Assembly: GCF_902832845.1 (NCBI RefSeq)
Contig: NZ_CADFDB010000017.1
Span: 51,474-115,473 of the forward strand
DNA: 64,000 nucleotides
DNA from: Burkholderia metallica
GTDB lineage: Bacteria; Pseudomonadota; Gammaproteobacteria; Burkholderiales; Burkholderiaceae
Direction: 5' to 3'
In this document: in pieces, positions 4,934 to 47,771 of the stretch
Numbering within the stretch: position 1 is the first letter of the stretch
Layout: each line of letters starts with the position of its first letter
Made by a program: the position numbers and the translations under genes
Notes under the pieces: generated by a model
Seen by the model: only the letters and a program-made list of their open reading frames with translations
Told to the model about the DNA's origin: nothing
Database searches by the model: none

Positions 4934-6166
4934 TCAGACGCGCTTGAACACCAGCGTGCCGTTGGTGCCCCCGAAGCCGAAGTTGTTCTTCACGGCGACG
5001 TCGATCTTCATGTCACGCGCGGTATTCGCGCAGTAATCGAGATCGCACTCGGGGTCCTGGTTGAAGATGTTGATGGTCGGCGGCGACACGTTGTTGTGCA
5101 GCGCCAGCACCGTGAACACCGATTCGAGGCCGCCCGCGCCGCCCAGCAGGTGGCCCGTCATCGACTTCGTCGAGTTGACCACCATCTTGTACGCGTGCTC
5201 GCCGAAGGCCGCCTTCACCGCGTCGGACTCGTTCTTGTCGCCCAGCGGCGTCGACGTGCCATGCGCGTTCAGGTACTGGACCTCGTCGGGATTCACGCCG
5301 GCGTCGCGCAGTGCCGCGACCATGCAGCGGCGCGGGCCGTCCATGTTCGGCGCGGTCATGTGGTATGCGTCGCCCGTCATGCCGAAGCCCGACACTTCCG
5401 CGTAGATCTTCGCCCCACGCGCCTTCGCCGCCTCGTACTCCTCGAGCACCATCACGCCTGCGCCCTCGCCCAGCACGAAGCCGTCGCGGTCCTTGTCCCA
5501 CGGACGCGACGCGGTAGCCGGATCGTCGTTGCGGGTCGACAGCGCGCGCGCGGCGGCGAAGCCGCCGATGCCGAGCGGCGACACCGTCGATTCGGCACCG
5601 CCTGCGACCATCACGTCGGCGTCGCCGGCCTGGATCAGCCGCGCGGCCAGGCCGATGCTGTGCAGGCCGGTCGTGCAGGCGGTGACGGCCGCGAGGTTCG
5701 GGCCCTTCAGGCCGAACATGATGCTCAGGTGGCCCGAGATCATGTTGATGATCGAACCCGGCACGAAGAACGGCGAGATCCGGCGCGCGCCGCGATCGAC
5801 GTACGTCTGGTGCGTATCTTCGATCATCGGCAGGCCGCCGATGCCGGAACCGACCAGCACGCCGATGCGTTCCGCATTGGCTTCGTTCACTTCCAGCCCG
5901 CTGTCCCGGATGGCCTGGACGCCGGCGGCGATGCCGTAATGGATGAACGTATCCATGTTCCGGGCTTCCTTCGCCGGGATGTACTCCTCGGCGCTGAAAC
6001 CCTTCACTTCGCCCGCGAAATGGCAGGCGAGGTTCGACGCATCGAACTTCGCGACGGTGGCGATACCGGACTTGCCGGCGACGAGATTGGCCCAGCCGTC
6101 GGCAACATTATTGCCAACAGGCGAAATCAGCCCCAGGCCTGTAACAACAACACGACGGCGGCTCAC
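4934..6166 (-). CDS. fabF: 3-oxoacyl-[ACP] synthase II (KASII)
   Basis: FabF condenses malonyl-ACP with growing acyl-ACP in fatty-acid elongation and sets the unsaturated chain length. The Cys-His-His catalytic set is visible: [11 protein letters not shown] (Cys near 163), [11 protein letters not shown] and [10 protein letters not shown]. The GTG start at 6164-6166 ([11 protein letters not shown]) has AAGAGG upstream and gives 410 aa, the usual size; an upstream start would add 12 unlikely residues. It follows acpP by 167 nt, a gap that contains alternative hairpins. Confidence 0.96.
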
Positions 6167-6191
6167 GGTAACCTCTTTTCCATTATTGGAT

Positions 6192-6246
6192 GACAAAAAC
6201 AAAAGCCACAGTGGCCACAGGAACCAGCCCTGCGAGCCCTGTGGCT
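6192..6246 (-). terminator. Terminator/attenuator-like hairpins between acpP and fabF
   Basis: In the minus-strand transcript the arm AGCCACAGG (complement of 6238-6246) can pair with CCTGTGGC (complement of 6214-6221). It can instead pair with CTGTGGCT (complement of 6204-6211), which is followed directly by a TTTGTTTTTG tract. The second pairing resembles an intrinsic terminator and the first would compete with it. This could keep acpP mRNA in excess over fabF mRNA. Confidence 0.55.
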
Positions 6247-6333
6247 GTTAGTCCGTCCGGCGCGAGGCCGGCAGGATGGCGCGTCAATCGCGAAGACCGC
6301 GGCGACGTGGCGGACAAGCGCGAAAGGCGCTCG

Positions 6334-6573
6334 TTACGCCTTGACGTTTGCGCGAGCGTAGTCGATCGCTTGCTGAACGGTCGTGATCTTCTCTGCTTCT
6401 TCGTCCGGGATTTCCATGCCGAACTCGTCTTCCAGAGCCATCACCAGTTCGACCGTGTCGAGCGAGTCGGCGCCCAGGTCGTTCACGAACGAAGCTTCGT
6501 TCTTGATCTCGGCTTCCGCGACGCCGAGTTGTTCAGCGACGATCTTCTTGACACGTTGTTCGATGTTGTCCAT
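6334..6573 (-). CDS. acpP: Acyl carrier protein
   Basis: This 79-aa acidic ACP carries the phosphopantetheine site Ser37 in the [10 protein letters not shown] motif. The helix II/III sequence [18 protein letters not shown] is typical of AcpP. ATG 6571-6573 has a very strong ribosome site (GGAGGGG), in keeping with its high abundance. It carries acyl intermediates for the Fab enzymes encoded on either side and donates acyl chains for phospholipid and lipid A synthesis. It lies between fabG and fabF, the usual proteobacterial order. Confidence 0.98.
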
Positions 6574-6717
6574 TACCCCTCCGAGGGAAAGTTCAGATTT
6601 ACAAGTGCGCGCATTTTATCAGGTTTGCTGACGCCAAAACGCGCGTTGGCTTGATGGTCGATCAAGCGCCGATCCGCCTGAAAATCAGGATACGGCGCGG
6701 ATGGTAAACGAAAATCG

Positions 6718-7467
6718 TTACGACATGTACATGCCGCCGTTCACGTGCAGCGTCGTACCGGTGATGTAACCGGCCTGCGGCGATGCGAGGAACGCGACGG
6801 CATGGGCGATGTCCTCCGGGCTGCCGAGGCGGCCGAGCGGAATCTGGGTCTTGAGCGCGGCCTGCTGTTCTTCCGGCAGCGTCTTCGTCATGTCGGTGTC
6901 GATGAAGCCCGGCGCCACGCAGTTCACGGTGATGCCGCGGCTGCCGATTTCGCGCGCGAGCGCACGCGTCATGCCCGCCACGCCTGCCTTCGCGGCCGCG
7001 TAGTTGACCTGACCCGGGTTGCCGGCCGAACCGACCACCGACGTGATGTTGATGATGCGGCCGCCACGCGCCTTCATCATCGGGCGCAGCACCGCGCGCG
7101 ACAGGCGGAACACCGACTTCAGGTTGGTGTCGATCACCGCGTCCCAGTCCTCGTCCTTCATCCGCATCGCGAGCTGGTCCTGCGTGATTCCCGCGTTGTT
7201 GACGAGCACGTTCAGCGCGCCGAATTCCTTCACGGTCGCATCGATCAGCGCCTCGGCGGCGGCCGCGTCGTTGACGTTCAGCACCGCACCGCGGCCCGTG
7301 ACGCCCGCTTCCGCGAACGCCGCGCTGATCGCGGCGGCGCCCGATTCGCTCGTCGCGGTGCCGATCACCGTCGCGCCCAGGCGCGCGAGTTCGAGCGCGA
7401 TCGAACGGCCGATGCCGCGCGATGCGCCGGTGACGATCGCAACCTGTTTATCGAGAGTCTTGTCCAT
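6718..7467 (-). CDS. fabG: 3-oxoacyl-[ACP] reductase
   Basis: This 249-aa short-chain dehydrogenase has the NADPH-binding GASRGIGR motif near residues 14-21, the NNAG motif near 89-92, and catalytic Ser, Tyr and Lys in ITSVVGSAGNPGQVNYAAAKAG. It reduces beta-ketoacyl-ACP during elongation. Length and C-terminal HVNGGMYMS match FabG closely. It lies between fabD (36-nt gap) and acpP (144-nt gap). The larger gap before acpP probably holds an extra acpP promoter, although I could not fix a clear -35 element. Confidence 0.97.
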   Translation of the reverse strand: MDKTLDKQVAIVTGASRGIGRSIALELARLGATVIGTATSESGAAAISAAFAEAGVTGRGAVLNVNDAAAAEALIDATVKEFGALNVLVNNAGITQDQLAMRMKDEDWDAVIDTNLKSVFRLSRAVLRPMMKARGGRIINITSVVGSAGNPGQVNYAAAKAGVAGMTRALAREIGSRGITVNCVAPGFIDTDMTKTLPEEQQAALKTQIPLGRLGSPEDIAHAVAFLASPQAGYITGTTLHVNGGMYMS

Positions 7468-31176: not shown

Positions 31177-31252
31177 TCCCCGATAGCTCAGTCGGTAGAG
31201 CGCCGGACTGTTAATCCGTAGGTCCCTGGTTCGAGCCCAGGTCGGGGAGCCA
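31177..31252 (+). tRNA. tRNA-Asn (GTT), copy 1
   Basis: The 76-nt cloverleaf has acceptor TCCCCGA pairing with TCGGGGA, D-loop AGCTCAGTCGGTAGAG, anticodon GTT at 31210-31212 in loop CTGTTAA, T-loop GGTTCGAGCC and encoded CCA at 31250-31252. The outermost anticodon-stem pair is a C-U mismatch. It is identical to copy 2. Confidence 0.98.
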
Positions 31253-31324: not shown

Positions 31325-31400
31325 TCCCCGATAGCTCAGTCGGTAGAGCGCCGGACTGTTAATCCGTAGGTCCCTGGTTCGAGCCCAGGTCGGGGAGCCA
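31325..31400 (+). tRNA. tRNA-Asn (GTT), copy 2
   Basis: This 76-nt gene is identical base for base to copy 1, including the encoded CCA at 31398-31400 and anticodon GTT. The 72-nt spacer differs from the upstream flank of copy 1, so only the tRNA itself (plus about one flanking base) is duplicated. Confidence 0.98.
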
Positions 31401-44774: not shown

Positions 44775-46172
44775 TTAGCAAGCGTGATGCGGAAGCTCCG
44801 GCAACGGCGCCGAAAACCCTGCCAGCGTATCGCCGCGATCGCGCATGCCGTGCGCGCACATCAGCCGGTAGAGCGTGACGCGCGACACGCCGAGCTCGCG
44901 CGCGGCATCCGCGAAACGGCCGCGATGGCGCAACAGCGCCTGCTCGATCGCCTGCCGTTCGGCCGCCTCGCGCGCCTCCAGCAGCGACACGGGCGCGAGC
45001 GTCGCGAACTCGTTCAGCTCGAGATCGGCCGCGGTGATCATCCGGCCCTCCGACATGACGATCGCACGGCGCACGCGATTGATCAGCTCGCGCACGTTGC
45101 CCGGCCACGAATAGCCGTACAGTGACGCGACCGCGTCGGGGGAAAAGCCGCGCAGCCGACGATGCGCGTCACCCTTGAAACGTTCGAGCATGTGACGCGC
45201 GAGCACCTCGATGTCCTTGCCGCGCGCACGCAGCGGCGGCTCCTCGATCCTCAGCACGCACAGGCGATGGAACAGGTCTTCGCGGAACCGCCCTTCACGC
45301 AGCGCCGCTTCCATGTCCACGTGCGTCGCGCAGATCACGCGCACGTCGACGGGCACCGACACGTGCGCACCCAGCCGCTCGATCTTGCCTTCCTGCAGGA
45401 AGCGCAGCAGGCTGGCCTGGCTTTCGAGCGGCAAGTCGCCGATCTCGTCGAGAAACAGCGTGCCGCCGTTGGCGGCTTCGACGCGGCCGATCTTGCGCTG
45501 GTTCGCGCCGGTGAATGCGCCGCGCTCATAGCCGAACAGCTCGGCCTGCAGCAGCGTCGACGGAATCGCGCCGCAATTGATCGCGATGAACGGCGCCTGC
45601 GCGCGCGACGAACGTTCGTGAATCGCAACCGCCGTCAGTTCCTTGCCGGTGCCCGATTCGCCGGAGATGAACACCGGCGCGTCGGTTGCCGCGACGCGAC
45701 GGATCGTCCTGAAGAGGCCGAGCATCGCATCGCAGGTGCCGACCATCTCGCCTTCGCTGCGTCCGGCGCCGACAGGCGGTGCAGCGGTCTCGGTGAGCGC
45801 GACCATGCCGTGCGCATGACCGACAGTCTCGACGATCCGCGACGTCTCGTACGGCATCGTCACGTAGTCGAAACAGTAGTCGCGAATGAGATGGCGCAGC
45901 GTGGCGTCCTGCAACTGGCCGCGACGCGTCGCCGCGATCCAGCCGATGTGCTGAATGCTCAGACAGGATTCGAGTTCGCGCAGATCCGAGGGCTTGAAGC
46001 CCGGCGAAAAATCGAGCAGTCCGGCGGTCGCGACACCATGCTGCACGACGCGCCGCACATCTCGCACGGTCTCCGCGAGATCGACACGCCAGCCGCATTC
46101 GTCGAAATGGCCGCGCAACGCGTCGTTCGGTTCGCGCGAATAGTAGATCACGTGCCGCTGATCGGCTCCCAT
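44775..46172 (-). CDS. Sigma-54-dependent Fis-type activator, VpsR-like
   Basis: This 465-aa regulator has three parts. The receiver-like N-terminus (1-125) keeps Asp54 (GLLDFSPG) but lacks the canonical Lys, reading VTMPYE there. The AAA+ domain carries Walker A GESGTGKE (171-178), the sigma-54 contact loop GAFTGA (218-223) and Walker B LDEIGDL (241-247). A C-terminal Fis HTH is near 420-445 ([22 protein letters not shown]). It resembles VpsR, a c-di-GMP-responsive biofilm regulator. The nearest target candidate is the divergent small secreted gene. Confidence 0.92.
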
Positions 46173-46537
46173 ATGCTCACCCCGTTCATCAACCGTCTAA
46201 CGATTGCCGTGCACGCAGGTCACGTGCAGAAAGGTTCGAATCGGGTCAGCCGAAGGCGGCTCGATTCGCCATGCCGATGCTCGGCAACGACAAGGCCTCG
46301 CATGATGGCGCTTATCTCGCGTCCAGTTATTTTTGTTCAAGACAGCTTATCTATAGCCACCGAATACGACAATCCGGTTTCAGTCCGGCACGCGATGCGG
46401 CCGGATGCTCGGGAAGTCGATGCATGTCAATCGTCTGCACATAGCACTTGCGCAGCGATACGTTCGGTCGTCAATGCATGCGCCGATTTTCATCCTTGAA
46501 GCGTATCGGTTGAATCCGCAGTATTCCCGAGCCCCCT

Positions 46538-46572
46538 CGTTTCACGGCTGAAACATTTTCAGCCGTTTCACG
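46538..46572. promoter_or_regulatory. Inverted and direct repeats, probable activator site
   Basis: GGCTGAAA and TTTCAGCC form a perfect 8-bp inverted repeat with a 3-bp spacer (46546-46564). It is flanked by two copies of CGTTTCACG at 46538-46546 and 46564-46572. GTTTCA and TGAAAC half-sites therefore recur. The centre is about 100 bp upstream of the predicted start of the sigma-54 promoter, a normal enhancer distance. Confidence 0.65.
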
Positions 46573-46628
46573 ACACAATTCGCAACGCTTGCGCACGAAT
46601 CGCAGGCTCGACAATGGTCACGGCGCGA

Positions 46629-46644
46629 TGGCATGCATTTCGCT
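46629..46644 (+). promoter_or_regulatory. Sigma-54-type (-24/-12) promoter
   Basis: TGGCATGCATTTCGCT has the GG and GC dinucleotides at 46630-46631 and 46642-46643, separated by 10 bp. It matches TGGCACG-N4-TTGCW except for two positions. Transcription would start near 46655, upstream of the secreted-protein gene. Confidence 0.6.
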
Positions 46645-46673
46645 GAATAAGGAAAACGTCGGAGACAGCGACC

Positions 46674-46997
46674 ATGCGAAAACATCTTTTACTTTCTTTC
46701 GTGCCGCTGGCCATCGCGGTCGCGGCCGCCGGCCCGCCCACGGCCGCACGCGCAGACGAAGGCACGCCTGCGGACCGCGCGATGCTGCTTGCGGCAAACG
46801 CACCGGGCATGCAGCACGGCAACGGGTTCGGCATCGTGACCGTGGCAGCGCCGCGATCGCCGCCGGGCGGCAGGACTTCGGTGACGCTGTGGGACGAGAT
46901 CCCGCCGCCGCAGTTGCCGGTGCCGCTCCCGGCACCGCAGCCGGACGACGTACAGCACGCGATGGAAGGCACCGCGCAAGGCCGGACGCATCAGTGA
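46674..46997 (+). CDS. Small secreted Pro-rich protein, candidate sigma-54 target
   Basis: This encodes 107 aa with a signal peptide cleaved near ARA (MRKHLLLSFVPLAIAVAAAG). The mature chain includes DRAMLLAANAPGMQHGNGFGIVTVAAP, SVTLWDEIPPPQLPVPLPAPQP and a short His-ended tail. There is no Cys or transmembrane helix. ATG is at 46674-46676. It is divergent from the VpsR-like activator and preceded by a predicted sigma-54 promoter. I do not recognise a family; an exported matrix, signal or envelope factor is speculation. Confidence 0.75.
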   Translation: MRKHLLLSFVPLAIAVAAAGPPTAARADEGTPADRAMLLAANAPGMQHGNGFGIVTVAAPRSPPGGRTSVTLWDEIPPPQLPVPLPAPQPDDVQHAMEGTAQGRTHQ

Positions 46998-47141
46998 CGC
47001 ACGCATCGATTCATTTGATCAGGATGACGTATTGATTTGAACGAACCGGGCAGCGTCGATCAGCGCCGGCGGCGTCGATCTCGCAACACGGACCGGTTTT
47101 GTGCTCCGTTCCCCGGCGGGCACGCTTTTTATTCATTCCGT

Positions 47142-47270: not shown

Positions 47271-47771
47271 ATGACGACGTTGACCCTGATCGTCGCGCGT
47301 GCCCGCAACGGCATCATCGGCCGCGACAACCAGTTGCCCTGGAAACTTCCCGAGGATCTCGCCTTCTTCAAGCGCACGACGATGGGCGCGCCGATCGTGA
47401 TGGGACGCAAGACCCACGAATCAATCGGCCGGCCGCTGCCGGGCCGCCGCAATATCGTCGTCACGCGCGATGCCACGCGCCGCTTCGACGGCTGCGACAC
47501 GGTCACGTCGCTCGCCGACGCGCTGGCGCTCGCCGCGCGCGACGGCGTGCCGGAGGCGTTCCTGATCGGCGGCGCGCAACTCTACGCGGAAGGTCTCGCA
47601 CTCGCCGACAAGCTGGTCGTCACCGAGATCGATGCCGACTTCGACGGCGATGCGTCGTTCCCCGCGCCCGACGCCGCGCAGTGGCGCGAAGTGTCGCGCG
47701 ATGCGCATGAAGCGGCCGCACCGAACACGTTCGGCTATGCGTTCGTCGTCTACGAGCGCAAGCGCGGCTGA
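47271..47771 (+). CDS. folA: Dihydrofolate reductase
   Basis: FolA regenerates tetrahydrofolate with NADPH and is the trimethoprim target. The 166-aa protein has [44 protein letters not shown] and [13 protein letters not shown], with the active-site acid in PEDL. ATG 47271-47273 is preferred; the open frame continues upstream without a homologous sequence. It shares the thymidylate cycle with thyA about 3 kb away, but is separated by the sigma-54 module. Confidence 0.96.

Follow-up and report, generated by a model that had tools for sequence, protein, structure and literature searches.

A sigma-54 control region and small first gene, probably left behind by a lost Fap amyloid operon, in Burkholderia metallica

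Results

The regulator and its divergent neighbour

The 64,000-nucleotide stretch of Burkholderia metallica DNA analysed here (the window) carries on its minus strand a gene, reg1 (44775..46172), for a 465-residue sigma-54 activator of the VpsR/BerB type. The protein comprises a VpsR receiver-like domain, an AAA+ domain and a Fis-type helix-turn-helix (HTH), and matches the Pfam models VpsR (3.2e-21), Sigma54_activat (3.3e-68) and Fis-type HTH, all three above gathering thresholds. It belongs to the VpsR N-terminal domain family (PF20161) with 75.7 bits against a gathering threshold of 23.7, and its N-terminal domain also matches the PDB entry of VpsR, 7y19 (E = 3.7e-9). With a GAFTGA loop, the AAA+ domain and the C-terminal HTH, reg1 has the features of a sigma-54 enhancer-binding protein. 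The receiver retains Asp54 and lacks the lysine, which is likewise missing at the aligned place in the PDB chain of Vibrio cholerae VpsR; the original prediction of a VpsR-type activator with a degenerate receiver is thus borne out.

Three further VpsR-like paralogues with similar HTH ends are encoded in the same genome (G000) at 57–60% identity to reg1, namely the presumed BerB orthologue (59% identical) and the products at G000:C1:373328 and C1:1586639. BerB binds c-di-GMP with a KD of about 3 uM according to section 3.7 of PMC5552954, and passages of that paper and of PMC9684580 describe activation of berA by BerB together with RpoN. By analogy with BerB and BrfA, it is plausible that reg1 is c-di-GMP-responsive, a link that had been put forward as a possibility.

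Divergent from reg1, on the plus strand, lies the target gene (46674..46997), encoding 107 residues with a Sec-type signal sequence and a proline-rich C-terminus. No Pfam or NCBIfam family matched the protein, and its sequence has a hydrophobic N-terminus, in line with its earlier description as a secreted protein of unknown family. The AlphaFold model (mean pLDDT 57, pTM 0.13, best block residues 81–90) has no confident fold. Codons for a VTLWDE motif lie at 46881..46898. The right-hand neighbour on the same strand, folA (dihydrofolate reductase, 47271..47771), served as a synteny marker. Elsewhere in the window are two tandem tRNA genes (31177-31249 and 31325-31397) with identical Rfam scores.

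Conservation of the control region

To the left of the target gene we identified a -24/-12 sigma-54 promoter, TGGCATGCATTTCGCT, at 46629..46644 on the plus strand, and a predicted operator or enhancer box, GTTTCA-CGGC-TGAAAC, at 46539..46554, the start of which is 90 bp from that of the promoter. These were compared across 45 orthologous loci (L009–L053, the window's own included), drawn from the 57 of 65 genus genomes with a target match. In all 45, reg1 is divergent from the target (87–100% identical over the compared part) and the target is an open frame with the motif, at 36–83% identity in the 44 loci other than our own. The target also occurs in B. puraquae, B. lata, B. aenigmatica, B. 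arboris, B. seminalis, B. cenocepacia NCTC13227 and two other Burkholderia records.

The -24/-12 element (GG-N10-GC, ahead of the start codon) is conserved at all 45 loci and stands 90 bp from the box at 43 of them, 91 bp at the other two. Matches of this score are not rare in themselves (100 first-order Markov sequences gave a mean of 7.2 per 64 kb; the window has three), so it is the conservation at fixed spacing that makes the element real, and its original placement holds on these sequence comparisons. The box GTTTCA-N4-TGAAAC is exact at 44 loci, the exception (L040) having GTTACA.

The operator had originally been sought in an 8-bp inverted repeat, GGCTGAAA-CAT-TTTCAGCC (46546..46564), which overlaps the conserved box in part, together with two flanking copies of CGTTTCACG (46538-46546 and 46564-46572). 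These repeats are present as placed, but the exact 8-bp repeat occurs at one of the 45 loci, and on this ground it was rejected as the operator; its arms are half-conserved, at least 7/8 complementary in 28. With the repeat so variable and the box near-invariant, the operator core is, on sequence conservation, GTTTCA-N4-TGAAAC, and the repeat is a partly conserved extension of it. Behind the box, 26 of the 45 loci have a third TTTCA half.

A degenerate second box, TTTTCATCCTTGAAGC (46487..46502), stands 52 bp upstream of the main box with two mismatches. A second box with at most three mismatches is found at exactly -52 in 38 of 45 loci, and the chance of such a match within a 7-position range is about 0.001 in the window. 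No such copy was found in 19 of 20 loci from other genera, L124 being the exception with one at -115, or in six nfr loci. Of fourteen weaker target matches (L061–L074), every one contains the motif, 12 have an exact box, 13 a -24/-12 match and 11 the regulator nearby.

Selection on the target protein

The motif V[TIR]LWDE is present in 76 of 81 loci scanned, and absent from L120, L124, L126, L127 and L130. For the whole target gene, dN/dS was 0.41 (378 pairs, 28 of 45 loci), and for VTLWDEI alone it was 0.022 (234 of the 378 pairs, those with dS ≤0.05 or undefined being dropped); the low value in the presence of synonymous changes points to selection on the peptide. By a simple hydropathy rule, the N-terminus is hydrophobic in 59 of 59 scored genus loci. 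In other genera this feature is missing from 12 of the 15 loci scored, a point against export as the sole role of the protein. In L126 (G277:C1), the LWDE peptide has in-frame stops ahead of the motif and looks broken.

Full and reduced forms, and the probable loss, of a fap operon

Related species supply a genomic context for the target, which there opens a fap operon. In six loci with full operons (L134, L135, L136, L138, L140 and L170), the motif gene stands directly upstream of fapA, as a first fap cistron would, and is followed by relatives of L140 fapA–F in that sequence. The products in L140 match the NCBIfam models for FapA (2.4e-6), FapB (4.5e-26), FapC (8.9e-10), FapD (3.4e-61), FapE (1.4e-9) and FapF (7e-105), all below the curated cut-offs. 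L134, L135 and L170 share the order regulator, motif gene, fapA–F, second VpsR-like gene and folA. The fap operons of L136 and L138 lie away from reg1, yet end in another VpsR-like gene.

By exception, fapA directly follows the promoter in L124 and L137. Several other loci hold reduced forms. L141 and L156 have a piece of fapB with the second regulator, L139 has fapC alone with the second regulator, and L131 and L132 have only the second regulator. L158 (G027:C1) keeps the regulator, box and promoter, with the VTLWDE gene missing and a short FapC remnant before folA. Among 20 loci outside the genus with the box and promoter, an LWDE peptide lies downstream in 16 (behind stops in L126), folA is within the stretch in 15, and the regulator is upstream in 16, two of these being fragments.

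With the best 25 or fewer candidates scored per genome, a close FapF match (77–100%) turned up in at least 11 of the 65 genomes of the genus, and the 45 genomes with the short locus yielded none. By its coordinates, it lies beside the motif gene of the thyA–folA locus in G016, G022, G040, G047, G048, G052 and G059. In G024 it is on a separate contig, and in G010, G014 and G050 it is at some other place in the genome. A second, distant FapF (29–32%), part of a different cluster, is present in at least 11 genomes, six of them short-locus (G006, G011, G031, G034, G046 and G061). The window's own genome has no FapF match to the L140 query (all 34 candidates scored) and no FapA-model match, and so holds a remnant and not a Fap system. 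Across 274 genomes of the class, the FapA model gave four matches, none above the cut-off and, by eye, none with a clear box upstream.

The window itself contains a 27-nt relic of the fapB 3' end (47097..47123, plus strand; VLRPPAGT codons); the stretch doubles as a terminator-like hairpin with T5 behind it. It has one mismatch to the fapB 3' end of fap-positive loci, where random 900-nt window stretches have 9–14. Across the 45 loci, the relic has at most four mismatches in 36, five to seven in seven, and is not recognisable in two (L050 and L051); as it is terminator-like, its conservation may be functional. A passage of PMC3792158 describes the B. cepacia complex as lacking fap genes, and a listing in PMC6173800 has B. 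cepacia among Fap carriers. Judged from the intermediates and the relic, the fap genes were most likely lost from the lineage rather than gained.

The box and promoter elsewhere

We searched family genomes for the box with a -24/-12 element 78–104 bp behind it (start to start) and found the unit in 61 of 299 genomes and 7 of 25 genera, with none in the reversed control. Among the 65 matches listed, 64 are spaced at 90–92 bp and one at 81, and many of these loci are orthologous and therefore not independent. Three loci carry further genes of note. In L120 (G255:C349), from another genus, the box and -24/-12 element directly precede a gene that, judged by eye, resembles a CRP/FNR-type, berA-like gene, and L127 and L130 (G099:C1 and G079:C3) have second box-and-promoter sites before other genes, the one in L130 being followed by a Gly-Ser-Pro repeat protein with a signal-like N-terminus.

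There are two exact copies of the box in the 7.55 Mb of the own genome, one in the window and the other at C8:118028, exactly 90 bp from the -24/-12 site of an nfrBA operon (NfrB and an NfrA_C protein). NfrB matches NCBIfam PRK15489 (1035 bits) and the c-di-GMP motif NF053729, both above cut-off, and the c-di-GMP NfrB model NF008411 below its cut-off. Five other nfr loci examined (L154, L155 and L166–L168) have the box at 90–92 bp. In the region around the own copy (L060, G000:C8:112000-124500; positions 5644-6887), the nfrBA operon has its box and promoter, and divergent from it lies a small ORF that starts at about 6579 and encodes a signal-like N-terminus. A DUF2334 gene, also divergent, comes with another -24/-12-like site, at 6410.

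For a wider sample, 26 exact boxes in 21 other loci were picked from the matches listed, leaving out the nfr and thyA–folA loci, and sigma-54-like sites were scored by a scheme of our own built from the consensus. Eight of the 26 boxes have such a site at 90–92 bp, where 0.12 would be expected under an even spread; L146/L148 and L153/L169 look like the same loci across species, which leaves about six of the eight independent. Four mutually homologous loci (L162–L165, from G010, G011, G022 and G031) have an exact box 101–102 bp from the site and carry a distant fap/Fil-like cluster with FapF at about 30%, and in L144 the site is at 80 bp, so that 80 and 101–102 bp amount to one helical turn less or more. 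Twelve boxes have no sigma-54-like site at 80, 87, 90–92 or 101–102 bp. Among the genes that follow such sites are one for an ESPR autotransporter, preceded by a TPR gene (L147), one for an outer-membrane usher, at a distance of about 2 kb (L169), those for TadE-like proteins (L144 and L150), and one for a Na/Pi cotransporter (L160) that does not fit a matrix regulon. Sites also precede genes in L146, L148 and L149. The 87-bp site of L159 points away from its neighbour, a TadE gene, which was therefore rejected as the gene driven. The boxes of L142 and L143 (three exact copies each) sit beside genes that by eye resemble ParA genes, and are probably plasmid partition sites and not enhancers.

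The link to berA

The published berA RpoN site (PMC5552954) is found with at most one mismatch in 48 of 65 genus genomes, including our own, where it coincides with the berA promoter at G000:C1:1163104. A candidate berA at L057:382-1137 was discarded, the published promoter lying just outside that locus. Eight aligned berA promoters share a conserved element ending in TGAGAC at the position of the box. In the own genome, the box start is 92 bp from the TGG of the berA promoter and the box is degenerate, with one good half (TGAGAC); BerB and reg1 may thus differ in site preference. The distance from the element to -24 is 90 bp at the target, 90 at nfrBA and 92 at berA, which places the arrangement in the BerB–berA promoter class, with the element a putative BerB site at berA. 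A search of the own genome for a half-box with a promoter returned nine matches, against none in the control. Three precede a same-strand gene without an overlapping ORF (berA, nfrBA and the target), while L193–L196 overlap ORFs and L192 and L199 have no gene called nearby.

As nfrBA and berA share this architecture, and as three more paralogues exist at 57–60% identity, the original view of regulator, operator and target as a self-contained set is not supported.

Discussion

An orphaned first cistron

We consider the locus to be what remains, control region and first gene, after deletion of a Fap amyloid operon in this lineage, with reg1 still driving the orphaned accessory protein (probability about 0.7). 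The anatomy of the locus, its conservation, the fixed spacing, the sharing of the fap locus and the selection on the motif are all read from sequence. From these we infer loss of the fap genes and not gain, and the following course of events. The regulator reg1 would bind GTTTCA-N4-TGAAAC (46539-46554), perhaps aided by the weaker copy that precedes it by 52 bp. At high c-di-GMP levels, reg1 would remodel the RpoN closed complex at 46629-46644 and so turn on the 107-aa gene, the presumed first cistron of the ancestral operon. Its product would be exported via the Sec route, and the VTLWDE-Pro motif would act on a partner still present after the Fap fibre genes had gone. Any of the three other VpsR-like paralogues could also bind the box. 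Other points against this explanation are that L158 keeps the switch without the VTLWDE gene, that in L124 and L137 the predicted promoter would drive fapA directly, that berA has one good half-box, that the fapB relic is terminator-like, and that 12 of the 26 other exact boxes have no sigma-54-like site at the distances listed above.

The motif protein may instead be a feedback partner of the regulator, with the motif docking on the VpsR-like activator or the RpoN complex and the Burkholderia signal sequence secondary. The motif protein and the regulator do stay together where fap is gone, the motif is kept at the 12 scored non-genus loci whose N-terminus is not hydrophobic, fap operons apart from reg1 (L136 and L138) still end in a VpsR-like gene, and the predicted model lacks a fold, as might be expected of a linear-motif peptide. 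We nevertheless think it unlikely, given the hydrophobic N-terminus throughout the scored genus loci, the regulator without a motif gene in L158, and the box and promoter without the motif in L120, L124, L127 and L130.

An improbable reading of similar standing is that the main protein at the box is a different VpsR-like paralogue (BerB or the product of C1:373328 or C1:1586639) and that reg1 controls something else. The similar HTH ends of the three paralogues would allow this, as would the presence of the box at nfrBA and, degenerate, at berA, but the divergent position of reg1 at every orthologous locus, and its upstream position at 16 of the 20 loci from other genera (two fragmentary), is the usual layout of a local activator.

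For a self-contained set with the 8-bp repeat as operator, the divergent layout and the complementarity of the arms (28 of 45 loci) speak in favour, but a repeat exact at a single locus, a box found also at nfrBA and other loci, and the fap context make it very improbable. Slightly more remote still is decaying debris kept by chance beside a useful promoter, a reading that fits the fairly high dN/dS of the whole gene, the loss of the rest of the operon and the missing gene of L158, but not the open frame, motif included, at every one of the 45 loci or the motif dN/dS of 0.022.

A possible wider matrix regulon

Beyond the reading of an orphaned first cistron, and as a more tentative proposal to which we would give somewhat less than even odds, the box may be a helically phased enhancer (80, 90–92 or 101–102 bp from -24) of a c-di-GMP/sigma-54 matrix regulon common to VpsR-like activators across the Burkholderiaceae, covering Fap, the Nfr glycan, usher fimbriae, Tad-type pili and an autotransporter, with the VTLWDE mini-protein a linear-motif factor that outlived its amyloid.

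The box and its fixed spacing would then be a predicted DNA code for c-di-GMP/sigma-54 control of Burkholderia biofilm matrix genes, and berA, nfrBA and the fap locus would be joined in one testable regulon. As far as our literature search shows, berA is the only such Burkholderia promoter described. The search, which covered mostly freely accessible papers and did not take in the RpoN regulon published for B. cenocepacia H111, found no paper on the GTTTCA-N4-TGAAAC box or the VTLWDE gene; as far as it shows, what is new here is the orphaned first cistron, together with the phased box and the wider regulon, and the regulator and promoter are of known kinds. The pattern suggests stepwise loss of an amyloid operon with the switch and one tiny protein kept under selection, which points to some job of its own for that protein.

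Comparison with known systems

The closest described system is BerB–berA of Burkholderia cenocepacia, which (PMC5552954) has a VpsR-like GAFTGA activator of the same type (presumed orthologue here, 59% identical to reg1). The berA -24/-12 promoter likewise has a conserved element at a near-equal distance (92 vs 90 bp). It differs in having one good half-box (TGAGAC) and in its product, a CRP/FNR regulator and not a small secreted protein.

In Pseudomonas fluorescens PF07, BrfA senses c-di-GMP directly and activates fapA, as passages of PMC13101488 and PMC9207406 describe. Compared by description only, BrfA is, in those passages, a Fis-type sigma-54 c-di-GMP activator encoded beside fap, and the first fap gene is expressed from a -24/-12 promoter. 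The full fapA–F is present there with brfA downstream in reverse, whereas here fap is gone and the gene driven is an extra first cistron.

The likeness to the Fap operon itself lies in the target-type gene that comes first in the fap-like operons of relatives and in the fapB 3' relic in the window; the differences are that the own genome matches neither the L140 FapF query nor the FapA model and that the VTLWDE gene belongs to no NCBIfam or Pfam family. VpsR of V. cholerae shares with reg1 the PF20161 domain, the kept aspartate and the absent receiver lysine, but VpsR acts without RpoN, according to a passage of PMC5552954, whereas reg1 adjoins a sigma-54 promoter.
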